A stretch of 64,000 bases of DNA. Origin: Butyrivibrio sp. GTDB lineage: Bacteria; Bacillota; Clostridia; Lachnospirales; Lachnospiraceae. Each line of letters opens with the position of its first letter. The first letter of the stretch is position 1. Of this stretch, positions 42,645 through 55,227 are shown in pieces. A model generated the notes under the pieces. The model searched no databases. It was not told the origin of the DNA and worked only from the letters and a program-made list of their open reading frames with translations. The stretch is taken from positions 1 to 64,000 of the forward strand of contig JAKVKH010000015.1 in assembly GCA_022486625.1 (NCBI GenBank), given 5' to 3'. A program made the position numbers and the translations under genes.

Positions 42645-43575
42645 AAGCAGCTTCTCTGGCATATTCCTGCATCTGCATGATTTCTGTATCTGTAAAGCCA
42701 AACATTTCTTTTGCAATACGGATTTCGTTTGCGAGGCATGTGCCGGAGACCGTACGGTTATCAGAGTTTAAAGTTACTTTTACGCCGGCATCAAAGAGCC
42801 TGCGGATAGGATGCTCTTTTTCGGAAGCAAAACAGTGAGTATCAAAATTGCTTTTCAGGCACACTTCAAGAGTGGTGCCTTTTTTTATGAGTTCTTCTAT
42901 CAGAGATGGATCTTCAATGGCGCGGACGCCGTGTCCGATTCTTTTTGCACCAAAAGAAAGGGCTGTGCGGATACTGTCCGGTCCTGCAGCTTCGCCGGCA
43001 TGGATGGTAAAAGGAATATCGAGGGAGGCAGCGAGTCGGAAGAGATCGGCATAATCTGCAGTTGGAAAGATCGCTTCTGCGCCGGCCAAATCTATGCCGC
43101 AGACAATGTCTCCACGCAGCATGGCGGCAGTTTTTATGGTTTCCGTATTTTCTTTTTTCAGATTTTTTCCTCTCATACAGCAGAGAATCAGACCAATCCG
43201 TATATCCGGATACTTCTGCATGGCTTTTCTCGCACCCTGCACGGCCGCGATGGTAACTGCTTTCTGAGAAAGTCCCTGATGCGTCAGCGGCGCCGGTGCA
43301 AATCTGAGTTCGGCGTAAGTGAGTCCTTCATGGAACAGATCTTCTGCCAGTTCATATACGGCTCTTTCAAGCGCCTCTTCTGTCTGCAGCAGCTGAAGCG
43401 GCAATGAGAAACAGTCCAGATATGCAGTCAGTGAGGTGCAACTGTCTGGAACGGTCAGCCGCCTGGCAATATTTTCAGCATTGATTTTCGGGTCAACATC
43501 AGACTGAAGCTGTGCCAGCTGTAATACCGTGGAAGGCCGGAGAGAACCGTCAAGATGAAGATGTAATTCGTACAT
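42622..43575 (-). CDS. add: Adenosine deaminase family protein
   Basis: 'ELHLHLDGSLRPST', 'FTIHAGEAAG', 'RIGHGVRAIEDP', 'TLNSDNRTVSGT'. Confidence 0.92.
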   Translation of the reverse strand: MYELHLHLDGSLRPSTVLQLAQLQSDVDPKINAENIARRLTVPDSCTSLTAYLDCFSLPLQLLQTEEALERAVYELAEDLFHEGLTYAELRFAPAPLTHQGLSQKAVTIAAVQGARKAMQKYPDIRIGLILCCMRGKNLKKENTETIKTAAMLRGDIVCGIDLAGAEAIFPTADYADLFRLAASLDIPFTIHAGEAAGPDSIRTALSFGAKRIGHGVRAIEDPSLIEELIKKGTTLEVCLKSNFDTHCFASEKEHPIRRLFDAGVKVTLNSDNRTVSGTCLANEIRIAKEMFGFTDTEIMQMQEYAREAAFNPIVRP

Positions 43576-43805
43576 ATAACCTCTTTTCATGAATCTGAAT
43601 TTAGTCTGCCTGTAAATGAGAACTGAGGAGTATTATAACAGATTCGCTTTATTTTAATGACAGTTTAATAAAAGAATAATTCATAATTTTAAAATGATCA
43701 AATTATTGGCCAATAGTAATCGGTATGACATGTTGTTATTAATAAATTAATAGTGCATAATTATATTACAAAGATATTTGCCATACCATTTCAAGGGGGA
43801 AGAGG

Positions 43806-44591
43806 ATGGAAGAGAAGAACAGGATTTACTTTGCACGGACATATCGGCGTCTGAAGGCAAATATATGGAAAGGATTCCTTTATGTTCTGTTTCTTGTCTT
43901 ACCGTGTTTCCTTTGGATATTATTTAATATTCACATGTTGACATTCACAATTTCAAAAATTGCGACGCGGATTCTTGGAAGGGAATTTCCCGGAGTCAGC
44001 ATGACAATCAGAGAAAGCAGCTATTCCATATTGGGAACAATGGCATACATTGACATGCCGGATATTTATCCAAATCTGCCATTTATCCTTCTGAATATTC
44101 TGACTGTGGTGATATTGATCCTTTTTCTTGGCTCCGGGAGAAGAAAAGGGAAACCGATTGCCATATTTTTTATGTTGAGCCTTTTAATACATATGATCAC
44201 CTGTGTCTATTTTCTGTTTGCACAAACTGAATTTCCATATTCAATCGGACAGTTCTCTGATCTTTACATGAAACAGCAGATCGGAATCTGGATTACATTT
44301 ACAATCCTTGCCGGAATTGTGACAGGGTTTCTTGGCGGGCGGGGGTATTTATACAAGGTTCTTGCGTTTGCCACAATTATGATCTATTCCATTCTTTTTG
44401 GCGGAATAAGATACATTCTTTTTCTGTATATACTACACAGATTTTCTTTATTGTACATGGGACTGATGTTTTTCTCTTTTGGACCTCTATTTGATTTCCT
44501 GTATCTGGTTGCCATTTACGCGCTGCTGACAGATAAGCTTACCAGAATGTATGATTCACAGAAAGGGAGAGCGGAGTGGAAATGGTCATAG
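43806..44591 (+). CDS. Polytopic membrane protein of unknown function, first gene of the surface-polymer operon
   Basis: 261 aa, about 6-7 TMs; GGGGGAAGAGG RBS; overlaps the next gene. Confidence 0.75.
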   Translation: MEEKNRIYFARTYRRLKANIWKGFLYVLFLVLPCFLWILFNIHMLTFTISKIATRILGREFPGVSMTIRESSYSILGTMAYIDMPDIYPNLPFILLNILTVVILILFLGSGRRKGKPIAIFFMLSLLIHMITCVYFLFAQTEFPYSIGQFSDLYMKQQIGIWITFTILAGIVTGFLGGRGYLYKVLAFATIMIYSILFGGIRYILFLYILHRFSLLYMGLMFFSFGPLFDFLYLVAIYALLTDKLTRMYDSQKGRAEWKWS

Positions 44592-45850
44592 CAATTATGA
44601 AAGCATATATGATTTTTGTCATAATATTGATGCTTGTTTATACAGTAAGACATTTTCTGTTTGCAATTAATCGTTTATTTGGTAAACAACGTCTGTATTA
44701 TGAAGATATTTATTCCAGCAGAATGAAGAAAGTATCGATACTGATCCCCATGCACAATGAGGAACAGGTTCTTGACTTTGTTCTTCAATCTCTTCTGCAA
44801 TGCGATTATGACAGGGACCGGTTGGAAATTATTCCGATTAATGATAATTCAACGGATCATACAAAGGAACTTTTGGATAAATATCATGAAAAATATGAGT
44901 TTATAAGACCGTTACACAGAAACTGTGCGGACAGAGGAAAGCCGGCAGCATTAAATGATGCCATGAAGATTGCAAGGGGAGAGATTATCATTGTCTTTGA
45001 TGCAGATTACCGACCGGCAAGAGATATGATCAAACAGCTTGCAATTGCGTTGGAGGATCCGGAAGTCGGCGCTGTAATGGGGAGAGTAATTCCATATAAT
45101 ACAAATACAAATCTGCTGACAAGATTAATTAATCTGGAGCGTTCGGGTGGGTATCAGGTTGATCAACAGGCGAGATATAATCTGAGAACAATTCCGCAGT
45201 ACGGAGGAACTGTAGGTGCTTTTCGCAAGGACCTGATGATTGAAATGGGAGGCTTTAATCCAAAAGTTCTTGCCGAAGACACCGAGCTTACGTATCGTCT
45301 TTATACTAACGGCTGGAAGGTAATCTATGCGAATTCAGCTGAATGTTATGAAGAAGCGCCTGAGACCTGGGAAGTTAGAGGACGGCAGATCAGAAGATGG
45401 TCAAGAGGGCATAATGAGGTATTATTCAGATATCTGCTGAAGACGATTTTTTCTCCAAACATGACTTTCAGAGAGAAAACAGACGGAATATTGTTACTAT
45501 TTGTTTATGCAGTCCCTTTTTTTCTGCTGATTGGTCATGGCGTTTCCATTGCCTTGTTTTTTCTGGGTAATATGAATCTGCTGGCAGGCTGGTGGGTACT
45601 TCTTTTTATCGGAGTATATTGCTCGTTTGGAAATTTTGCACCATTTTATGAAATCGGTACAGCGCTGATGCTGGATGGGGTAGCAGGAGAGGCGCGTTTA
45701 CTTCCGCTGATCATGTTCAATTTCTATTTTTACATGTGGAATATCAGCCTGGGTTTTACAGATGCAATTGCGGATGTGGTAACACATCGGAAGGTAAAAT
45801 GGGCAAAGACTGCCAGATTCATTAATAAAGAAGAAAAAGAGGGGACTTAA
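44576..45850 (+). CDS. Processive family 2 glycosyltransferase
   Basis: 'SILIPMHNEEQVLDFVLQSLL', 'VFDADYRPA', 'AEDTELTYRLY', 'RQIRRWSRGHNEV'; C-terminal TMs. Confidence 0.93.
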   Translation: MEMVIAIMKAYMIFVIILMLVYTVRHFLFAINRLFGKQRLYYEDIYSSRMKKVSILIPMHNEEQVLDFVLQSLLQCDYDRDRLEIIPINDNSTDHTKELLDKYHEKYEFIRPLHRNCADRGKPAALNDAMKIARGEIIIVFDADYRPARDMIKQLAIALEDPEVGAVMGRVIPYNTNTNLLTRLINLERSGGYQVDQQARYNLRTIPQYGGTVGAFRKDLMIEMGGFNPKVLAEDTELTYRLYTNGWKVIYANSAECYEEAPETWEVRGRQIRRWSRGHNEVLFRYLLKTIFSPNMTFREKTDGILLLFVYAVPFFLLIGHGVSIALFFLGNMNLLAGWWVLLFIGVYCSFGNFAPFYEIGTALMLDGVAGEARLLPLIMFNFYFYMWNISLGFTDAIADVVTHRKVKWAKTARFINKEEKEGT

Positions 45851-45852
45851 GT

Positions 45853-47550
45853 ATGCAGGATATCGTTTTATTGACAGTACTGTTTATTATAATGCTTACG
45901 GGGCCGATCTTTTTTTCTGCAATTTATTTCAAAAAACATAAGGGAAGTATATTACATATTAATCAGGATCGTGTCAGGGACGAACGTTATTTTGGTAAAT
46001 CTTTTGCAGCAATGATAAGGAACAGAATCGGATCAGCAGAGAATGGAGAAATTCAGCTTTCAAAGAATGAGCCATACATTGATGCTGACAGGCATCCTGA
46101 ATACCCGGAAACTGTAGGGGAACTTGTAATAGCCAGAAAGAGTGTTTTTTCAGTACCGCATGGAGTATATAAATTTGAAAAAGAAATATACAGTGGTCAA
46201 AATGCAATTCTGACGCAGGAGCATCTCAGAATCCGGGCGATTTACTCTGCAGATAAAATGATTCTGGGGCGTGGTATATCCGTTATGCGCTGGGTGGATG
46301 CAGAAAGCACACTTGCTGTTTATGATGACTGTGACCTTGGAATCAGTGCGAGTGCCGGAAAAGGTATGAGTATAGGCACAAATTGCAGGTTCAGGAGAAT
46401 TTATGCTCCGGAAGTCAGAATTGGACAATATCCAGATAAGCAGATAGATCCGATGAAGGATAGAGATCCGAGGATACTTAGACTGCCGATCAAAACAGAA
46501 AGTGTCAATCGAAGATATATCAGCAAGGATTTGATTAATGAAGAAGGAATTGTAGAAAATACAATTATTTCATGGAGCAGTGTGGAAGTAATTGAGGGCG
46601 TTATTATTCAGGGAGATGTCCGCTCTCACCATGGCGTCAGACTTTGTCAGAAAGCAGTTGTCTGTGGCAATATTTTTGCTGAGAATGATATTCTTCTTGA
46701 AAAAAATTCTGTAGTGCTTGGCAATGTATTCTCACAGGGGAAAATAATTGTAGAAGATGGTGTAATGATTGGGCAGAAGGGGAGAATATGTTCAGTAATT
46801 GCACGCAGATCAATTACTTTTGGATGTGATGTATTTCTATATGGTTATGCCAGTTGTGAGGAAGGCGGCGTGATTGTACAGAATTCAGAGAGTAAAGATA
46901 ATATATCTGAAAAGCAGTATGGTTTTCTTGATGAACCGGAATTGCTTACGGTTCTTTCATTTAAAGATGTTTATGATTATGAGCATGTTGATCAGCAAGG
47001 CTTCCGGAAAAGAAAGAGACTTGCGAAGGTTACAATTCCGGAGGGTGCATTGCAGATACCGGAAAGCATGTTTTTCGATTGCGAAAAATTAGAAAAGGTG
47101 ATATTGCCGACAAGCATTCAGCAGATCAATGATTATGCATTTGCAGACTGTTTTCTGCTTAATGATCTGGAAAACTTTTGTCGGATGCAGATTACTGAAA
47201 TTGGTGTATCTGCATTTGAAAACTGCAGAATGATTAAAAAATTAAAAATACCAGATACTGTTGTAACGATTCACGGAGCAGCATTTGCCGATTGCGATAA
47301 TCTTGCAGATATCAGATTCAGTGATAAATCTGCACTTGAAAGAATTGAAGATCATTGTTTCCGAAACTGTAGTTCATTGCGTGAATTATGGATACCTGAT
47401 CAGGTTAAAAAAATCGGAATCAGTGCTTTCAGAGGATGCTCCGGATTAAAGAAGCTGTCATTACCTCAGTGTTGTATGAATGAACCAGGGGTAATTCAAC
47501 TTCAGAAAGATGGATTTACGGGAGAAATTGAAATCAGAGAGTTCAGCTGA
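45853..47550 (+). CDS. Membrane-anchored beta-helix (bactofilin-like) plus BspA-type leucine-rich repeat protein
   Basis: N-terminal TM followed by KKHK; 'VIIQGDVRSHHGVRL...VVCGNIFAENDILLEKNSVVLGNVFSQGKIIVEDGVMIG'; LRR_5-type repeats 'IPDTVVTIHGAAFADCDNL'. Confidence 0.75.
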   Translation: MQDIVLLTVLFIIMLTGPIFFSAIYFKKHKGSILHINQDRVRDERYFGKSFAAMIRNRIGSAENGEIQLSKNEPYIDADRHPEYPETVGELVIARKSVFSVPHGVYKFEKEIYSGQNAILTQEHLRIRAIYSADKMILGRGISVMRWVDAESTLAVYDDCDLGISASAGKGMSIGTNCRFRRIYAPEVRIGQYPDKQIDPMKDRDPRILRLPIKTESVNRRYISKDLINEEGIVENTIISWSSVEVIEGVIIQGDVRSHHGVRLCQKAVVCGNIFAENDILLEKNSVVLGNVFSQGKIIVEDGVMIGQKGRICSVIARRSITFGCDVFLYGYASCEEGGVIVQNSESKDNISEKQYGFLDEPELLTVLSFKDVYDYEHVDQQGFRKRKRLAKVTIPEGALQIPESMFFDCEKLEKVILPTSIQQINDYAFADCFLLNDLENFCRMQITEIGVSAFENCRMIKKLKIPDTVVTIHGAAFADCDNLADIRFSDKSALERIEDHCFRNCSSLRELWIPDQVKKIGISAFRGCSGLKKLSLPQCCMNEPGVIQLQKDGFTGEIEIREFS

Positions 47551-48700
47551 AAAAATAAACGGAGATGCCGAAGACGTGAATATAAATTTTGATAAGAAAA
47601 AACTTTTGGTGATTTTCCTGCTTTGTATCATAATGCTTACTTTACTGTATCCGACAGATCAGCTTGTGAATTCGACCTATTTAAATACAGAAAGCTGTAA
47701 AAAAAAGAAGGAGATGGGAAAAGATCAGTACAATAATGCAGGTTTGCTAAATGGACAGAAACTGTCAGATGAACTTTTGGAGGATAAAAAGTATGTGATT
47801 TATCCGGATCGTGTTTTTTTGCATTTTGATTATCACAGAAGTTATGCGGATCAGAGCGCAAGGCTGGGGAATGCATTGAAGAAGGCAATCGGAACCTGCA
47901 GACTCTATATAATGCCGGCACCAATGAGAGTGTTTACAGAGGAAACAGGAAAGAGCGATTTGGATAATTATACTTTGTTTATGGAAGAAATCGGTCAGCA
48001 TCTGAATCCAGGAATATATCTTGTAGATACATTTCCGGATATCTCAGCACATCAGGATGAATATGTGTTTTTCAGAACCGAAAATTCATGGACAGCAAGA
48101 GGTGCATATTATGGATGCAGGGATCTTTTTGAACTTATGGGAAAAGATATACCGGAAATTGAGAAATATAATGAATATATGTTCAGACCCTTCTGGGGGA
48201 CGACAAGGCATGAATGCAAGGAGGAATATTCAAAAGATTCAGCAATTTATAAAAGCCTGAAGAATATTGAGGAGGATCCGTTGTATTTTTATCTGTCTCC
48301 GAAGTCGGAAAATAGAGAGGAAATTGTTGAAGAAAATTCAGCAGGAGAAATGATCAGGACAAAAAAACCGATGATTACGACAGAAACGGTCGGACTTGGG
48401 GCTTTTGTGGGAAATGATTATGAATATGCCATAGTAGATGGAAAAGGTGCAAAGACCATACTTGTTATTTGTGACAGAACTGGAAATGTGATGGTACCGT
48501 TTCTGGCGGATGAATTCAGAAAAGTATATGTGATTAATATTGAACGTGCGGATGTGACAGCGGAAGAAATCCGGAATATTATAAAGGAGTACGAAGTTTC
48601 AGATGTGCTATGGGTACAGAATGTTCTCAGAATGGGAGATGGGGAATACTGTAAGGTGTTAAATTCAATTATCAGTGATGAAATGGAGAATGAAAAATGA
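47510..48700 (+). CDS. DHHW/AlgX-like SGNH-fold protein, catalytic motif apparently lost
   Basis: 'DEYVFFRTENSWTARGAYYGCRDLFELMG' and 'ILVICDRTGNVMVPFLADEFRKVYVINIE...VSDVLWVQNV' resemble the DHHW-family blocks. Confidence 0.7.
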   Translation: MDLREKLKSESSAEKINGDAEDVNINFDKKKLLVIFLLCIIMLTLLYPTDQLVNSTYLNTESCKKKKEMGKDQYNNAGLLNGQKLSDELLEDKKYVIYPDRVFLHFDYHRSYADQSARLGNALKKAIGTCRLYIMPAPMRVFTEETGKSDLDNYTLFMEEIGQHLNPGIYLVDTFPDISAHQDEYVFFRTENSWTARGAYYGCRDLFELMGKDIPEIEKYNEYMFRPFWGTTRHECKEEYSKDSAIYKSLKNIEEDPLYFYLSPKSENREEIVEENSAGEMIRTKKPMITTETVGLGAFVGNDYEYAIVDGKGAKTILVICDRTGNVMVPFLADEFRKVYVINIERADVTAEEIRNIIKEYEVSDVLWVQNVLRMGDGEYCKVLNSIISDEMENEK

Positions 48701-49320
48701 CAGATGTTCTGATACAGATATTTTCTTATTTTGCATATCTGACAGGAATAGAAGGATCCATATGGAAATATCGTTCTTATGGCGATGATGCAATTCTGCT
48801 GATTGCAGTAGTGCTTCTTTTCTTTGGATTTATGGCATTCAGAATTATTTCTTCAACGATGGTGTTTGGCATGATTACAATAGTGATATGCAGGCTTTTT
48901 GAAGCATATATATCTTGGGGGAGTGTGGTGACTGCCTTTGCTGTGATTGGTGTTATCACCGCTTTTCTGTTATATCTTGCACCATATTTTGAGGGTGGTG
49001 TTTTCTGCATTGTACTGGGTGGAATTGCTGGCTGGAATATATCTGAAAGCATACCCGGTATGCTGATTGGAGCTTTTTTGGGAATGATTATGTTCTGCCT
49101 GATTCCTGTGAGTGGAATCTGCGCTATCAGTGCGGTGACAGGGGCTGTACTGTTAAGCGAGAGTGAAAAGTTTCCCATACCGTTGATGGTGGTCATATTT
49201 TGTATTTGTTTTTTCTTTCAGTTATTTATCAGCCGCAGGCAAAAAATATTTTCAAAGAGATGCCCGGAAAAATTGACAGACTTTTTTCATGAAGTGGAAA
49301 GGACGCTCAAAAAATGCTGA
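48697..49320 (+). CDS. Polytopic membrane protein of unknown function
   Basis: 207 aa, about 6 hydrophobic segments; ATGA overlap with the upstream gene and overlap with the VTC gene. Confidence 0.75.
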   Translation: MTDVLIQIFSYFAYLTGIEGSIWKYRSYGDDAILLIAVVLLFFGFMAFRIISSTMVFGMITIVICRLFEAYISWGSVVTAFAVIGVITAFLLYLAPYFEGGVFCIVLGGIAGWNISESIPGMLIGAFLGMIMFCLIPVSGICAISAVTGAVLLSESEKFPIPLMVVIFCICFFFQLFISRRQKIFSKRCPEKLTDFFHEVERTLKKC

Positions 49321-49997
49321 AGGTTTTCAGAAAGGAAATAAAATATCGTATTCCGGTGGAAACGTATTTGATGCTTGAAGGCAGGCTTGGTTTACTTTTG
49401 GAGAGAGACCGGTATGGAGATCAGGGGGAGTATGTTGTACGATCACAATATTACGATTCTTTCTGCGATCAGGATTTACAGGATAACCTGGATGGATTGA
49501 TGGAGAAAAGAAAAATACGTTTACGGATATATTCTCCGGAAGACTGTTCTGCAAAGCTGGAGTATAAGTGTAAAAGCGGTATGGATGGGCTGAAATATTC
49601 AATTGTGATTTCCAAAAAGGAAGCATTACAGATGGAAAATCATGATTACAGTTTTTTACTGATGCATGAAGAGGAACTTGCCACATTTCTTTATGTTAAG
49701 CTGATGCAGAATGTATATCGCCCGAAAACAATCGTAGAATATCACAGAAGAGCATATACATGCCCTGCAAGTGATATACGTATTACATTTGATTATGACA
49801 TGCGGTTTGCCACCAGCCCGTATGGACTGTTCGATTCGGGGGAGATGTATCAGCCTCTTGGAAACATGGATATGGGAGTGCTGGAGGTAAAATATAATGA
49901 TTTTCTGATTGCACCGGTCAGAGAAATTATACAGCAGATTGATCGGCTTGCAGATGCAAACAGCAAGTATTCACAGGCACGTTTGAGATATATGTAG
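49314..49997 (+). CDS. VTC-domain polyphosphate polymerase-like protein
   Basis: 'FRKEIKYRIP', 'VRSQYYDS', 'RKIRLRIY', 'KLEYKCKSG', 'RPKTIVEYHRRAY', 'ITFDYDMRF', 'GVLEVKYN'. Confidence 0.9.
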   Translation: MLKVFRKEIKYRIPVETYLMLEGRLGLLLERDRYGDQGEYVVRSQYYDSFCDQDLQDNLDGLMEKRKIRLRIYSPEDCSAKLEYKCKSGMDGLKYSIVISKKEALQMENHDYSFLLMHEEELATFLYVKLMQNVYRPKTIVEYHRRAYTCPASDIRITFDYDMRFATSPYGLFDSGEMYQPLGNMDMGVLEVKYNDFLIAPVREIIQQIDRLADANSKYSQARLRYM

Positions 49998-50005
49998 GAG
50001 GATAA

Positions 50006-50686
50006 ATGAGAGATTTTATTATTGAGAATCTGACAGATTCGGCATCAATTGAGTTATCAAAAATTGTGATAAATAATGTTATTGCATTGGTGGTTGCCTT
50101 TTTTATTATGTTTACATACAAAATCACCTATTCAGGTACGGCATACAGCAAAAAGTTCAATGTATCAATTGGCACAATTATTATTATAACGACAATGATT
50201 ATGAGTGTGATCAGTAATAATGTTGCGTTATCGCTGGGTATGGTTGGCGCATTATCAATTATCCGTTTCAGAACAGCCGTAAAAGATGTAAGAGATGCCA
50301 CATTTATATTCTGGGCGATAGCTGCAGGAATAGGCTGCGGTGTATCCCAGTATTCGCTGATTGCAATCGGAAGTATTTTTATTCTTATATTTCTGATACT
50401 TACAAAACAGGTTGTTGATTCCAAAAGCCAGTTACTGGTGATCCAGGCTTCAGATTCCGCACAGAATGAAATAGAAGCGGCTGTATCTGATTATTTTGGA
50501 TCTTCCGTACACAGAATCATGAAGAATCTTTCACAAGGAAAGTGTGAAATTGTATACAGCATTAAGGAAGGCGCACTTCAAAAAGGAAAAGAAAAAAACC
50601 TTGTAGATATTTCTCAGTTTATCATGAAAATTGATGGCGTGATCAGTGTTAACCTGTCAGAACAGCAGGATGATATTTCTAGATAA
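50006..50686 (+). CDS. DUF4956 domain membrane protein
   Basis: Three or four TMs with 'SLGMVGALSIIRFRTAVKDVRDATFIFWAIAAGIGCG'. Confidence 0.88.
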   Translation: MRDFIIENLTDSASIELSKIVINNVIALVVAFFIMFTYKITYSGTAYSKKFNVSIGTIIIITTMIMSVISNNVALSLGMVGALSIIRFRTAVKDVRDATFIFWAIAAGIGCGVSQYSLIAIGSIFILIFLILTKQVVDSKSQLLVIQASDSAQNEIEAAVSDYFGSSVHRIMKNLSQGKCEIVYSIKEGALQKGKEKNLVDISQFIMKIDGVISVNLSEQQDDISR

Positions 50687-50709
50687 AATCGCAGGAAGGG
50701 CAGAGCACA

Positions 50710-52134
50710 ATGAAAAAAAAGTTCATGTGCATATGGATGGCGATAATGCTGCTGGCCGCGGTCATCGCATGCTCATATCTGAACCGCGTGATAATGAAAT
50801 ATGCACCGGCGACAGATTCTGAGAATGACAGGATGCAGGAAGAAGATCAGTATATTGCTCCTGATGCGGAATCTTTGACTTATTACGGACTTGGAGATTT
50901 TCAGACAACATTACCGGTAATCTACATCAATACACAGGGAAATTATGTCAATAAAGCAGAACGGGTAAGAGCCAGTATGGCGGTATTGAATGCAGATCCG
51001 TCAGGCAAAGCAAAATCTGTTTTGGATAAACCGGATTACAGCGAAGCAATTATGATTAAATACCGGGGTGCTTCTTCGTACAATTTTGATAAAAGACAAT
51101 ATCGCTTTGAATTTGTCAGATCGCAGACCAGTAAAAAAACAAAAGAACGTGAATTTCTTGGAATGGGAGAGAACAGCGACTGGGTATTAAACGGCCCTTT
51201 TCTTGATAAGACGCTTCTTCGAAACTGGGTTGCATATCATCTTGGAAAAGATATATTTGAATGGTCCCCTGATTGTCATTTTACAGAGCTTTTTCTGGAT
51301 GGAAACTATAAAGGGGTTTATCTGGCAGTTGAACCGGTAACCAACGGAGAAAGCAGGTTGCGGTTATGCAAATTCGGACTTCTTTCCGGACAGACAGCGT
51401 ATATCATCAGTCGTGAACGTACTGACAGTCAGGATGATCCGTTGGATAATTATGGAACGTTATATGGAAAGACAAATAATCAGGTATTTATTGATTATCC
51501 CTCCAGAAAAGATCTGACAGATACCGAAAAAAAATGGATCACAAAGGATATCAGTAAATTTGAAAAGGCACTGTATACCCGGTTGCCTGAAAGTGACAGC
51601 TATAAAGATTATATTGATGTGCAGAATTTTGCTGATTATTATGTATTTAACCAGATTTTCATGAATTCTGACATGGGTTCTCTTTCTACATATGCGTATA
51701 AGGAACTGGGCGGAAAACTGAAGTTGACAATATGGGATTACAACAATTGCCTGAATAATTATCAGTGGGATGTTGAAGATTTGGATGATTATTATGGCGG
51801 AGAAGGAACATGGTTTGCCGGATTACTTCAGGACAGACTTTTTGTGGATACCGTTGTCAAACGCTATCATGTGCTTCGTAAGACAACACTGTCAGATGAA
51901 AATTTCTGCAGAATGGTTATGCAGGCGCAAAAAATGCTGGGAGATGCGAAAGATCGTAATTTCAAGGTGTGGGGATACACATTTAATGAAAATCTTCTGA
52001 TCGGAGATGATCGTGATATCGAAAATTATGATGAGGCTATTGCTCAGCTGCTGACAGCATATGAACAGAGAACCGCATATCTTGATGCACATATTTCAGA
52101 TTTATATCAAAAATGTGCAGAGGAAAGCAGATAA
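50710..52134 (+). CDS. CotH kinase family protein
   Basis: 'LPVIYINT', 'IKYRGASSYNFDKRQYRFEF', 'WVLNGPFLDKTLLRNWVAYHLGKDIF', 'YKGVYLAVEPV', 'LTIWDYNNCLNNY'. Confidence 0.92.
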   Translation: MKKKFMCIWMAIMLLAAVIACSYLNRVIMKYAPATDSENDRMQEEDQYIAPDAESLTYYGLGDFQTTLPVIYINTQGNYVNKAERVRASMAVLNADPSGKAKSVLDKPDYSEAIMIKYRGASSYNFDKRQYRFEFVRSQTSKKTKEREFLGMGENSDWVLNGPFLDKTLLRNWVAYHLGKDIFEWSPDCHFTELFLDGNYKGVYLAVEPVTNGESRLRLCKFGLLSGQTAYIISRERTDSQDDPLDNYGTLYGKTNNQVFIDYPSRKDLTDTEKKWITKDISKFEKALYTRLPESDSYKDYIDVQNFADYYVFNQIFMNSDMGSLSTYAYKELGGKLKLTIWDYNNCLNNYQWDVEDLDDYYGGEGTWFAGLLQDRLFVDTVVKRYHVLRKTTLSDENFCRMVMQAQKMLGDAKDRNFKVWGYTFNENLLIGDDRDIENYDEAIAQLLTAYEQRTAYLDAHISDLYQKCAEESR

Positions 52135-53300
52135 TGCAGATAAGGAAAAAAATACGAGGAATCATGATGGCTTTCGGGCTGATCATGATTTTGATCTATA
52201 TTATAGCAGATTGCAGATATATCAGCGACAGACATGTGATTGCAGCAGGCAAAATTACGCACTTGCAGGAAGTAATTGAAACAGAAAAATTATGGATCAA
52301 AAGCAATCAGAGTACAGACGGATATATATATATGAATGCGTCTTCAGACCAGCAGAAATCAAGGGAAATAAACCCTTATTTTGCATGTCAGGCTGTACGT
52401 GGCCTTCTGGCAGGAGATGTATCTGCATCTGATATGACAGCAGCAGAGCAGTATATAAACTGGCAGATCAGAATGATCATTGAACAGAACGGAGTGATTA
52501 CAAATTACAGTGAAGCAGATGGAAAACTGAATTCTACAGGAAGCGCGGATTCAGTTGATGCATATATAGCAGTATTTCTTGATCTGACAGGAAGATATAT
52601 CAAGGCCGGAGGGAATATTGACCATCTGCAAAATCTGGATACTGCCCTGACATTATGCAGCGAAGAACTTAAAAAGATTCTGAATAACGGAATGACTGCA
52701 GTTTCAGAAACAAATAAAACGGTTTATCTGATGGATAATGCGGAACTGTATGAAGGATGTCGGCAGATTTCTTCCATGCTGAAAGGCAATGGCGGAAAGT
52801 ATGCGGAGTTGGCTGCATGGTATGGGAAAACTGCCGATGAATGCAAGAGGAAAATTAATGCCTCTTTATGGAATCAGAAAGAAAAAAGATATGAAGTTGG
52901 AATCAACCCTGACGGAAGCAAACTTGAGTTTCAGGGGTGGGATGTTTTTTATCCCGATGCGATTGCACAGATTTATCCGTATATTTGCGGAGTTCAGAAA
53001 AAGAGTGAAGCGATAGATCTGTACCAGCGAATCTGTCAGCAGTATGACTGGCAACATCTTCAGATTCCGGGAGAAGAGTTTGAGTGGCCGGAGCTGGCAT
53101 ATGCGGCAACATTATGCGGAGATCCGGAACGTGCGGAATTATATGTAGATGAATTTGAAAATAAATACGCTGTTCAGCGTAAATATCCGCTTCATACAGC
53201 AAATGCGGGATGGGTAGCGATATCCGGCAGCCATATGATTTCAGAATATCATCAGTGGGAAAATCGTGGGATAATACAGAGTCTTTTTATAAGGAGCTGA
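52134..53300 (+). CDS. Membrane-anchored (alpha/alpha)-toroid glycosidase-like protein
   Basis: N-terminal TM; 'TEKLWIKSNQSTDGYIYMNA', 'NPYFACQAVRGLL', 'EFQGWDVFYPDAIAQIYPYICGV', 'EFEWPELAYAATLCGD' reminiscent of six-hairpin glycosidases. Confidence 0.55.
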   Translation: MQIRKKIRGIMMAFGLIMILIYIIADCRYISDRHVIAAGKITHLQEVIETEKLWIKSNQSTDGYIYMNASSDQQKSREINPYFACQAVRGLLAGDVSASDMTAAEQYINWQIRMIIEQNGVITNYSEADGKLNSTGSADSVDAYIAVFLDLTGRYIKAGGNIDHLQNLDTALTLCSEELKKILNNGMTAVSETNKTVYLMDNAELYEGCRQISSMLKGNGGKYAELAAWYGKTADECKRKINASLWNQKEKRYEVGINPDGSKLEFQGWDVFYPDAIAQIYPYICGVQKKSEAIDLYQRICQQYDWQHLQIPGEEFEWPELAYAATLCGDPERAELYVDEFENKYAVQRKYPLHTANAGWVAISGSHMISEYHQWENRGIIQSLFIRS

Positions 53301-53304
53301 AATA

Positions 53305-55149
53305 GTGGTCAATCAAAAACGCGGTAAAGAAGTCAGACTGATACTTCTGCTTTTTGTCTGTATCTGTTTTTGTTTCAGTATATTGGTACTGCTGATTAAC
53401 TGGCAGAATAATTACGCTAAAAACAATCAGAACAGAAAAACGGTAATTGAACTTGTGGGTGACAGATCTGAATGGCAGTATATGGATGCGGGGATGGAGC
53501 CTGGAGTAGGTGATGCATGGACGTTACCGGGGTATGATGCGGCTCATTGGAAACAGTCTTCAGGTCCGTTTTCCGTAGCGGAAAATGGAAGCGGAAAACT
53601 TATACTGAATGGTTCCGGGAATTCCGGCAGTATATATTTCAGGCATACTTTTACAATAAAAGATCTCAGTGACGTACATGCAATCATCGGAAGTATTTCA
53701 TACAGATACGGAGTACTCGTATATCTTAACGGTAAGATTGTATATGCCGGTAATGTGCCGGAAAACGGATATGATAATAATATGCAGTTTGGTGCGGCAC
53801 AGGCTGATGGGCAGATTCGCAGAGATAAGCTTCAGATTACAGATGTTTCTGCATTAAAAAAAGGTGATAATGTTCTGGCGGTTGAGATTCATCGTGCAGG
53901 ACAGGAATATAACAGCCCATTATTCGAAATGAAGGCAGAAACTTCGTTTCAGAAACTGATTACGGATAGTCCGGATGTAAAACATATCATGCTGCAAAAT
54001 GGAGGAGATGAGCATGAGACCGGTATTAATTTAATGACATCAGAAAATGATGAAGGATATTATGAAGTACATTATGTTGAAAAAAAAGCATTTAATATGA
54101 AAAAGAACCACCCCAGAGAAGGAGAAGAACGTATTGCACTATTGGGCAGATATAATGGAGAAAAAGAGAGTGTACACAGGGGAAAAATGACAGAACTGAA
54201 AACAGGCACTGAATACCTGTACTGTGTTTCACGCGTCGGAGATACTGTGCATACAAAATGGCTTACTTTTGTTACACCATCCAGAAATTCCTTCAGTGTA
54301 CTTCTGCTGGGAGATCCACAACTTGGATCTTATGGCGCGGATGATCGCAGTATCTGGAATGCCGCAATAAAAAAGGAAAGTAAACTGCTCGGAAAAACAG
54401 ATTATATATTCAGTCTTGGGGATCAGGTGGATGCAACAGGGGAGAAAAATACAACATTAAAGGCATATTATGATTTCAGATACCCGGATTTGTTCAGAAA
54501 TACTCCGGCAGTAATGGTTATGGGAAACCATGAAAGCGGTACGAATGCAGAGGAGATATATCGCTGCCAGTTTGGAGATCAGCCATATAGTTTTGTATGC
54601 CAGAATACACTTGTTGTTGTTTTGAATTCCAATGATTCTGAATATGAAAATCAGATACAATATATGGAAAAAACAATCAGACAGAATAACCATAAGTGGG
54701 TGATTGTATTGATGCATCATTCTCTTTTCAGCAGTGGTGAACATAGTGATGATGAAAAAACAGAAACAATGCGAAAGGCATATTCAACTTTTTTCTCCAG
54801 AATGGATGTTGATCTTGTAATCAGCGGACATGATCATATTTATTCAAGATCATATCTGATGAACGGAGAACAGCCACTGAATTCTTCCATATCAAATCGG
54901 ATTTTCAGGCATAAGAACCAGACAATGTACCTTACTGCCGGTTCATCATCAGGTAATAAGTTTTATACAGATGATGTTGTAAAGCAAAGATATACAGAAT
55001 ATCTGTTTTCGAATGATGTGGCAACGACAGCCAGGTTGACAGTCAGTGGAAATTTGATTGACGTGGAAGCATATCGAATGGATACGGAAATGCAGATTGA
55101 TCATTTTGTTCTGGAAAAACAGCAGGATGATTCTTCATATAGAAACTGA
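53305..55149 (+). CDS. Membrane-anchored purple-acid-phosphatase-like metallophosphoesterase with N-terminal beta-sandwich
   Basis: 'LLLGDPQLGSYG', 'SLGDQVDATGEK', 'MGNHESG', 'VLMHHSLFSSG', 'VISGHDHIYSRS'. Confidence 0.9.
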   Translation: MVNQKRGKEVRLILLLFVCICFCFSILVLLINWQNNYAKNNQNRKTVIELVGDRSEWQYMDAGMEPGVGDAWTLPGYDAAHWKQSSGPFSVAENGSGKLILNGSGNSGSIYFRHTFTIKDLSDVHAIIGSISYRYGVLVYLNGKIVYAGNVPENGYDNNMQFGAAQADGQIRRDKLQITDVSALKKGDNVLAVEIHRAGQEYNSPLFEMKAETSFQKLITDSPDVKHIMLQNGGDEHETGINLMTSENDEGYYEVHYVEKKAFNMKKNHPREGEERIALLGRYNGEKESVHRGKMTELKTGTEYLYCVSRVGDTVHTKWLTFVTPSRNSFSVLLLGDPQLGSYGADDRSIWNAAIKKESKLLGKTDYIFSLGDQVDATGEKNTTLKAYYDFRYPDLFRNTPAVMVMGNHESGTNAEEIYRCQFGDQPYSFVCQNTLVVVLNSNDSEYENQIQYMEKTIRQNNHKWVIVLMHHSLFSSGEHSDDEKTETMRKAYSTFFSRMDVDLVISGHDHIYSRSYLMNGEQPLNSSISNRIFRHKNQTMYLTAGSSSGNKFYTDDVVKQRYTEYLFSNDVATTARLTVSGNLIDVEAYRMDTEMQIDHFVLEKQQDDSSYRN

Positions 55150-55194: not shown

Positions 55195-55227
55195 ATGGCG
55201 CACTCGCTTTGAGGTGCGCCATATTTT
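55195..55227 (+). terminator. Intrinsic terminator closing the surface-polymer operon
   Basis: ATGGCGCAC-loop-GTGCGCCAT followed by ATTTTT. Confidence 0.85.

Follow-up and report, generated by a model that had tools for sequence, protein, structure and literature searches.

Within the 64,000-nt stretch of Butyrivibrio sp. DNA that was analysed (contig JAKVKH010000015.1, positions 1 to 64,000; hereafter the window), ten forward-strand genes encode a GT2 synthase with membrane partners, a VTC–DUF4956–CotH set (the phosphate cassette), and membrane-anchored glycosidase-like and metallophosphoesterase proteins (Table 1). The original prediction described these genes as tightly packed, which is borne out by the measured gaps between them (in order, −16, +2, −41, −4, −7, +8, +23, −22, and +4 nt; range −41 to +23 nt), and the strong terminator that it placed downstream is the best in the region. 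It also described an A+T-rich upstream gap of 186 nt; the composition holds (73% A+T, with the A+T content of the last 186 nt equalled by 0.4% of the 186-nt stretches in the window), but the gap measures 215 nt. A promoter would be expected here; promoter-like sites are no more frequent than in shuffled sequences. Rfam gave no match to positions 43400–44000 even at E ≤ 1, and no riboswitch was found directly upstream of this operon or of the core-type relatives searched.

Table 1. Features of the operon and its borders (positions in the window).
Feature	Position	Strand	Basis or remarks
A+T-rich upstream region, promoter expected	43620..43805	+	74% A+T; no Rfam riboswitch
Operon, ten ORFs end to end	43806-55149	+	overlapping or nearly touching
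mem1, 6-TM protein of undescribed family	43806..44591	+	gene immediately precedes that of the GT2 in almost every relative
GT2 polysaccharide synthase, GTG start	44576..45850	+	PF00535 (2e-30); PgaC-like but under PgaC cut-off
N-terminal TM + bactofilin-like beta domain + BspA-type LRR	45853..47550	+	Pfam: BspA-type LRR, weak bactofilin
DHHW (AlgX/AlgJ-like SGNH) protein, catalytic residues lost	47510..48700	+	PF14286 (5e-20)
mem5, ~5-TM membrane protein, no assigned family	48697..49320	+	no Pfam match
VTC-domain polyphosphate polymerase, without TM	49314..49997	+	PF09359 (91.6 bits, cut-off 23; 7e-26)
DUF4956 membrane protein, 3-4 TM	50006..50686	+	PF16316 (3e-14)
CotH kinase-fold protein, N-terminal TM, expected outside membrane	50710..52134	+	PF08757 (1e-50; 173 bits, cut-off 23.8)
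Membrane-anchored (alpha/alpha) toroid glycosidase-like protein	52113..53300	+	AlphaFold model, Foldseek
Membrane-anchored metallophosphoesterase, GTG start	53305..55149	+	PF00149 (1e-13); weak purple acid phosphatase N-domain
Intrinsic terminator	55195..55222	+	10 pairs, 6 G-C, T tract

Synthase and accessory proteins

Judged from its sequence, the GT2 protein has the features of a processive-type synthase: the DxD, ED, and QxxRW motifs are invariant in the alignment, and C-terminal TMs are present. The nearest named family is the PNAG synthase PgaC/IcaA (NCBIfam TIGR03937), against which it scores 131 bits, far under the cut-off of 422, and it is thus not a PNAG synthase equivalog; PgaB/IcaB or PgaD/IcaD were not found in the operon. 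Mem1, mem5, and the glycosidase-like protein belong to no family in Pfam or NCBIfam. The structural model of mem1 is confident (pLDDT 93), and a PDB fold search with it returned no significant match. For the bactofilin-like protein, the N-terminal domain is kept along with the synthase core and the LRR occurs in some monoderms only; positive charges after the TM suggest that the domain is cytoplasmic.

The DHHW protein had been called a pseudo-DHHW protein, and indeed ENSW replaces the DHHW motif and CDRT replaces GDS. Of the MBOAT-linked copies, 6 of 7 retain the DxH and Ser residues, compared with 0 of 16 others, and Pfam detects no MBOAT gene in this operon; the protein encoded here is unlikely to be active as an O-acetyltransferase. 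The alginate AlgI/AlgJ/AlgX system resembles the sister clusters L009, L031, L032, and L065, which carry an MBOAT and DHHW pair, but differs from the present operon, in which MBOAT and the DHHW catalytic residues are both missing.

For the glycosidase-like protein, modelled by AlphaFold at a mean pLDDT of 92, Foldseek finds (alpha/alpha) toroid matches in the PDB, including GH78, neutral/alkaline invertases, and GH76, among others, which confirms the toroid fold proposed beforehand; a single-sequence PDB search gave nothing useful. Its conserved residues are D146, D149, N209, E211, and Y280-P281. Relatives of the metallophosphoesterase are encoded at comparable loci (L021, L033, and L156). Extracytoplasmic modifying or trimming enzymes are co-encoded, as a toroid glycosidase fold here and as DHHW/MBOAT or a deacetylase in relatives, and the earlier view of a synthase accompanied by trimming enzymes, as in exopolysaccharide operons, is supported. 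Judged by gene content, the ten-gene operon very probably directs the synthesis and export of a sugar polymer.

A synthase core with interchangeable additions

Comparison with 80 named contigs (core counts are over 81 loci) revealed a core consisting of the 6-TM protein, the GT2 synthase, and the bactofilin-like protein, which is conserved in more than 10 phyla and retains this order in most of the loci; mem1 adjoins the GT2 in 68 loci by blastp clusters and in 78 by profile. Because the same gene order is kept in other genera, the operon is not a chance grouping, in agreement with its proposed status as one conserved unit. The operon is rare: it was found in 4 of the 200 genera that represent the family and, within the genus, in 3 of 79 species; an order-wide GT2 search, in which four candidates per genome were scored, gave at least 1 in 392.

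Diderm core loci add a deacetylase-like protein (weak Polysacc_deac_1) and a toroid glycosidase, and at least one of them (L034) also carries a YaiO outer-membrane barrel, which together with the deacetylase-like protein points to a secretion line. No publication describing the diderm core was found in the literature searched, and one could lie beyond it. Core loci of monoderm Firmicutes add either MBOAT and DHHW, an O-acetylation unit, or DHHW with VTC, DUF4956, and CotH, the form found here. The deacetylase and VTC cassettes (29 vs. 18 loci) share none of the 81 core loci. The original prediction, which was to fail if the GT2/DHHW and VTC/DUF4956/CotH halves never occurred together elsewhere, is in this respect upheld by 16 core loci besides the window that hold the whole cassette, a count inflated by relatedness and, the loci having been collected via the GT2, not independent as regards GT2 co-occurrence. 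The GT2 core itself extends far beyond the Firmicutes. Since the phosphate cassette is missing from the majority of core loci, polymer synthesis does not depend on it.

A gene for UDP-GlcNAc 2-epimerase is present in 44 of the 81 core loci; in this genome the sole copy lies on another contig, outside the operon. A precedent for a synthase using UDP-ManNAc is NfrBA/WecB of Escherichia coli (PMC8669469), which likewise ties a GT2 synthase to a UDP-GlcNAc 2-epimerase, with some loci adding an alginate-type acetylation unit; the polymer is perhaps ManNAc-based. NfrB differs in having an MshEN c-di-GMP domain, which neither Pfam nor NCBIfam detects in the operon proteins, and in its partner NfrA, and mem1, bactofilin, VTC, and CotH are not reported there. 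The Listeria Pss system (pssA-E; PMC4125290) shares a monoderm GT2 synthase, ~30% like PgaC/IcaA, but was ruled out as the same system on account of its different genes, since it encodes a BcsB-like protein (PssD) and a degenerate GGDEF protein (PssE), and neither family was found among the ten genes. The zetaproteobacterial sfz stalk cluster, with a CotH-domain protein near a GT2, was also rejected as a relative: it is BcsB-type, and the triad is unmatched.

The phosphate cassette and its partners

By alignment, the VTC protein retains the TTM catalytic residues of yeast Vtc4. Its invariant residues are K10, R69, R71, K85, K94, R145, R156, E191, and K193; the alignment profile matches Vtc4 (3g3q), whose RLR motif (R264/R266; PMC9911596) lines up with R69/R71, and E191 corresponds, by motif only, to E426. 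A single-sequence PDB search was uninformative, and the profile matched no solved bacterial VTC chain. As in the yeast VTC complex (PMC9911596), the polymerase adjoins a membrane partner, but here there is no SPX domain and the transmembrane portion is supplied by DUF4956 as a protein of its own. In CotH, D321 and D343 are invariant and spaced as the two catalytic Asp of Bacillus subtilis CotH (D228, D251; PMC7821199); the PDB alignment to CotH (5jd9) spans the N-terminal half only.

In a sample of 99 DUF4956 loci from the class, 96 have VTC next to DUF4956. Around 66 of 99 such loci lack a detected CotH or synthase, and this genome holds a second VTC–DUF4956 pair that is counted among these stand-alone pairs. 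Both points would fit an operon that makes a polysaccharide and, as a distinct surface polymer, an extracellular polyP exported by VTC–DUF4956, the two being linked by co-regulation only. We regard this as rather unlikely, given that the DUF4956 of this cassette falls in a clade (SH-aLRT 95) whose members almost always have a synthase and CotH as neighbours. Among 100 DUF4956 regions sampled, 10 of 11 loci with a CotH orthologue lie near a GT2 synthase, whereas 3 of the 88 loci without such a CotH have a synthase nearby, Pel in all three (Fisher 2e-10).

The joining of CotH, a polyP polymerase, and DUF4956 to Gram-positive Pel clusters, where DUF4832 is a further accessory gene, has already been published (PMC7112168; PMC12345266), so that the claim of an undescribed operon stands for the link to two non-Pel synthases and not for the cassette as such. 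Those clusters likewise place a VTC-type polyP polymerase, DUF4956, and a secreted CotH beside a synthase-dependent operon, with an extracellular glycosidase. They differ in that the synthase here consists of GT2, mem1, and bactofilin without PelF or PelG (PelG is absent from the whole genome, and Pfam finds no Pel-family match among the operon genes), the DUF4956 is of another lineage, and the Pel CotH is of a different subfamily, scoring below threshold with a model of the window type while still matching Pfam CotH. The cassette thus accompanies no fewer than three kinds of polymer-making machinery, Pel and two GT2 synthases unrelated to Pel, contrary to a 2025 statement that confines the arrangement to Pel. 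For the second kind of non-Pel synthase, VTC is immediately preceded by a c-di-GMP-I riboswitch in 6 of the 11 CotH-orthologue loci.

The control of these sister clusters by c-di-GMP riboswitches argues for an exopolysaccharide of vegetative cells. In Bacillus, CotH serves as a spore-coat kinase (PMC7821199), and the operon could on that ground be a spore-coat or cell-wall unit whose polysaccharide is a spore or wall glycan; we consider this highly improbable, as the core is present in Aquificota, Nitrospirota, and other non-sporulating phyla and the cassette in non-sporulating streptococci (PMC7112168).

Proposed function and significance

We infer that the operon is probably a synthase-dependent exopolysaccharide system of an apparently undescribed family, carrying a phosphate cassette that would tune or phosphorylate the polymer. 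The substrate of the GT2 with mem1 would be an N-acetylhexosamine nucleotide sugar, for which UDP-ManNAc or UDP-GlcNAc are the likely candidates; the pair would polymerise it and extrude the chain, with the bactofilin-like protein arranging the synthase complex and the anchored toroid glycosidase trimming the chain outside. In monoderms the phosphate cassette would have replaced the O-acetylation unit: VTC is predicted to make polyphosphate from ATP at the cytoplasmic face, with DUF4956 and probably mem5 as membrane partners, and extracytoplasmic CotH and the phosphoesterase may phosphorylate and dephosphorylate the polymer or its surface proteins, tuning polymer amount or cohesion. Against this proposal stand the operon's rarity and its lack of an epimerase, the fact that most core loci have no cassette, the ATP that CotH would not be expected to find outside the cell, and the small effect of deleting the polyP polymerase in Streptococcus intermedius (PMC12345266).

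In that species, aggregation and Pel persist in the polymerase mutant, CotH deletion lowers Pel, and deletion of an MgtC/ACT-type membrane gene, the DUF4956 counterpart, raises it (PMC12345266). Such phenotypes, like the working of most core loci without the cassette, are consistent with a purely regulatory role, in which DUF4956 (through an ACT-like cytoplasmic tail) and VTC would sense phosphate or energy state and CotH would phosphorylate synthase partners to set output, the polymer itself not being phosphorylated. This is possible, but we hold it to be clearly the weaker candidate, as the cassette stands where other loci have an MBOAT or deacetylase unit that modifies the polymer, CotH, anchored in the membrane at its N terminus, is expected on the outside, and the phosphoesterase accompanies the cassette in three other loci.

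A bolder version of polymer phosphorylation, which seems decidedly improbable, would make the cassette a polyphosphate-powered extracellular machine, portable among at least three synthases and an alternative to O-acetylation or deacetylation. PolyP made inside by VTC would be passed out by DUF4956/mem5, CotH, working where ATP is scarce, would use polyP or a nucleotide made from it to phosphorylate the emerging polysaccharide, and the phosphoesterase would trim.

On the preferred reading of a tuned or phosphorylated exopolysaccharide, the locus represents an apparently undescribed synthase family that spans many phyla with interchangeable modification cassettes. The VTC–DUF4956–CotH trio is no speciality of Pel: it accompanies several kinds of polymer-making machinery, in some cases under the control of a c-di-GMP riboswitch, and the role of bacterial CotH and VTC outside spores becomes experimentally approachable. 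Phosphorylated or phosphate-tuned matrix polymers would be predicted in gut and rumen Firmicutes.

Organization of the operon and its synthase core

The operon comprises ten plus-strand genes (see table) with intergenic gaps of -41 to +23 nt, and ends at the strongest terminator in the region. The upstream gap, given as 186 nt in the original prediction, measures 215 nt (73% A+T). G+C content is 39.1% in the operon vs. 43.9% in the remainder of the window.

Features of the operon and of related loci (L numbers, comparison regions; G000, genome of the window; C, contig)
Feature	Coordinates	Description
Operon	43806-55149 (+)	ten genes
Gene 1		mem1; 6 TM, without family
Gene 2		GT2
Gene 3		TM-bactofilin-LRR
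Gene 4		DHHW (AlgX/AlgJ-like SGNH protein)
Gene 5		mem5; about 5 TM, without family
Gene 6		VTC
Gene 7		DUF4956
Gene 8		CotH
Gene 9		toroid glycosidase-like
Gene 10		metallophosphoesterase
Terminator	55195	end of operon
Second VTC-DUF4956 pair (L001, L010)	G000:C20:3619-4765	beside ABC transporter gene
c-di-GMP-I riboswitch	L161:8874-8960	upstream of VTC
c-di-GMP-I riboswitch	L142:8820-8908	upstream of VTC
c-di-GMP-I riboswitch (L164, L169, L172, L180)		upstream of VTC

The window-type GT2 is rare: within the genus, 3 of 79 species carry it, and at family level 4 of 200 sampled genera do. A four-member GT2 alignment, used to scan named genomes, recovered 80 loci (identity 45-80%), which were thus collected via the GT2 itself. 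Throughout the comparison, many records are MAGs, some probably mis-binned, counts are uncorrected for relatedness, and genes are hidden by contig ends. Nearly all complete loci, annotated with profiles built in this analysis (on which the model matches rest), keep the order mem1-GT2-bactofilin-like. This core is a widespread conserved synthase unit, found in Bacillota, Aquificota, Nitrospirota, Acidobacteriota, Campylobacterota, Elusimicrobiota, Armatimonadota, Dictyoglomota, Cloacimonadota, Zixibacteria, Vulcanimicrobiota, and others; we found no description of the triad in the literature searched. The operon on L028, a contig titled Candidatus Micrarchaeota, resembles those of Firmicutes, and mis-binning of this contig is probable.

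Of the 81 loci examined, 44 include a UDP-GlcNAc 2-epimerase (PF02350); the single copy in the window's genome lies on a separate contig, away from the operon. Genetics of E. coli NfrB/WecB points to UDP-ManNAc (PMC8669469), and by this analogy the core synthase may plausibly make a polymer containing ManNAc. GT2 and mem1, the latter with a confident structure model matching no known fold, would polymerise an N-acetylhexosamine polymer and extrude the chain. A Pel cluster is ruled out by the lack of PelG in the genome; a PNAG system and Listeria Pss were ruled out as well.

The phosphate cassette and polymer synthases

The window-type gene order recurs in other Lachnospiraceae, a Ruthenibacterium MAG, and Clostridiaceae. 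VTC occurs in 17 core loci besides the window, together with DUF4956 and CotH in 16; the seventeenth, L020, breaks off after VTC. Independent sampling of 100 regions around DUF4956 genes within the class shows VTC adjoining DUF4956 in 96 of 99 loci, an almost obligate gene pair. CotH of the window's subfamily is present in 11, with a GT2 synthase ≤7 kb away in ten; the remaining locus is situated at the end of its contig. Loci without this CotH have a synthase in only 3 of 88 cases, all Pel. The phosphate cassette (VTC, DUF4956, CotH) belongs with polymer synthases.

The ten CotH/GT2 loci of this sample represent a second, apparently undescribed operon type, ordered VTC-DUF4956-CotH-TIM-barrel glycosidase-HEAT protein-GT2, and followed by an EAL protein in L142 and L161, the two loci that were read completely. 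Among the 11 CotH-bearing loci, 6 have a c-di-GMP-I riboswitch immediately before VTC; none was found upstream of the core-type loci searched or of the window's operon. TIM-barrel glycosidase and metallophosphoesterase are common to both types (L033, L156, L161), and their DUF4956 proteins group together (SH-aLRT 95), separate from Pel-linked and stand-alone ones.

CotH, polyphosphate polymerase, and DUF4956 were reported adjoining Gram-positive Pel in 2020 (PMC7112168), and in 2025 the three-gene synteny was stated not to have been found outside Pel (PMC12345266). The present data contradict this statement, because the trio occurs with GT2-type contexts in 27 loci besides the window (16 core, 11 HEAT-GT2).

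About two thirds of VTC-DUF4956 pairs in the 100 regions have no detected CotH or nearby synthase. The window's genome itself encodes a second, stand-alone pair, at which CotH was not found within the stretch read. In a third group (L160, L170, L171, L178, L181, L183-L187, L190) the pair is accompanied by a divergent CotH, and no synthase was detected; this group clusters with Pel-linked DUF4956 in the tree and may be spore- or wall-related.

Modification cassettes and the DHHW protein

The modification cassettes of core loci are interchangeable. In diderm loci the core is followed by a ~600-aa deacetylase-like protein (weak Polysacc_deac_1) plus a toroid glycosidase, with a YaiO outer-membrane barrel also in Sporomusa malonica (L034). 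Monoderm Firmicutes, whose GT2s form one clade (SH-aLRT 99), carry either MBOAT and DHHW, or DHHW (with or without mem5) and VTC-DUF4956-CotH. Deacetylase and VTC never co-occur (0 of 81 loci; deacetylase alone 29, VTC alone 18), an exclusion that tracks lineage as much as function, so that its Fisher value calls for caution.

Of 7 DHHW proteins beside the O-acetylation partner MBOAT, 6 keep the AlgX-type catalytic residues (taken to be Ser and the D and H of DxH); the seventh is the fused L036. None of 16 DHHW proteins without an MBOAT neighbour retains the intact set. The window's DHHW is therefore probably left over from an acetylation unit, as a scaffold or polymer-binding protein. Gene fusions of bactofilin-like protein with DHHW (L025, L028) and of MBOAT with DHHW (L036) suggest that these parts physically interact.

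Catalytic residues and proposed roles

The top PDB match of the VTC profile is yeast Vtc4 (E 1e-4). R69/R71 align to its RLR motif (R264/R266), mutation of which, with E426, inactivates Vtc4 (PMC9911596); K10, K85, K94, R145, R156, E191, and K193 are invariant among ten relatives. CotH has a strong Pfam match and a significant PDB match, and the distance between its invariant D321 and D343 resembles that between D228 and D251 in B. subtilis CotH, a correspondence judged by spacing (PMC7821199). The glycosidase-like protein has a confidently modeled (alpha/alpha) toroid fold with conserved acidic residues; the matches of the model span several GH families, with identities of roughly 10-14%, so it establishes fold rather than specificity.

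VTC and DUF4956 would make, and perhaps export, polyphosphate, while membrane-anchored CotH and the phosphoesterase would act outside, on the polymer or surface proteins. In S. intermedius, deletion of the CotH gene gave less Pel and weaker aggregation, deletion of an MgtC/ACT-type membrane gene gave more Pel and weaker aggregation, and deletion of the polyphosphate polymerase was nearly silent (PMC12345266). These published deletions favour a tuning over an essential role for the cassette.
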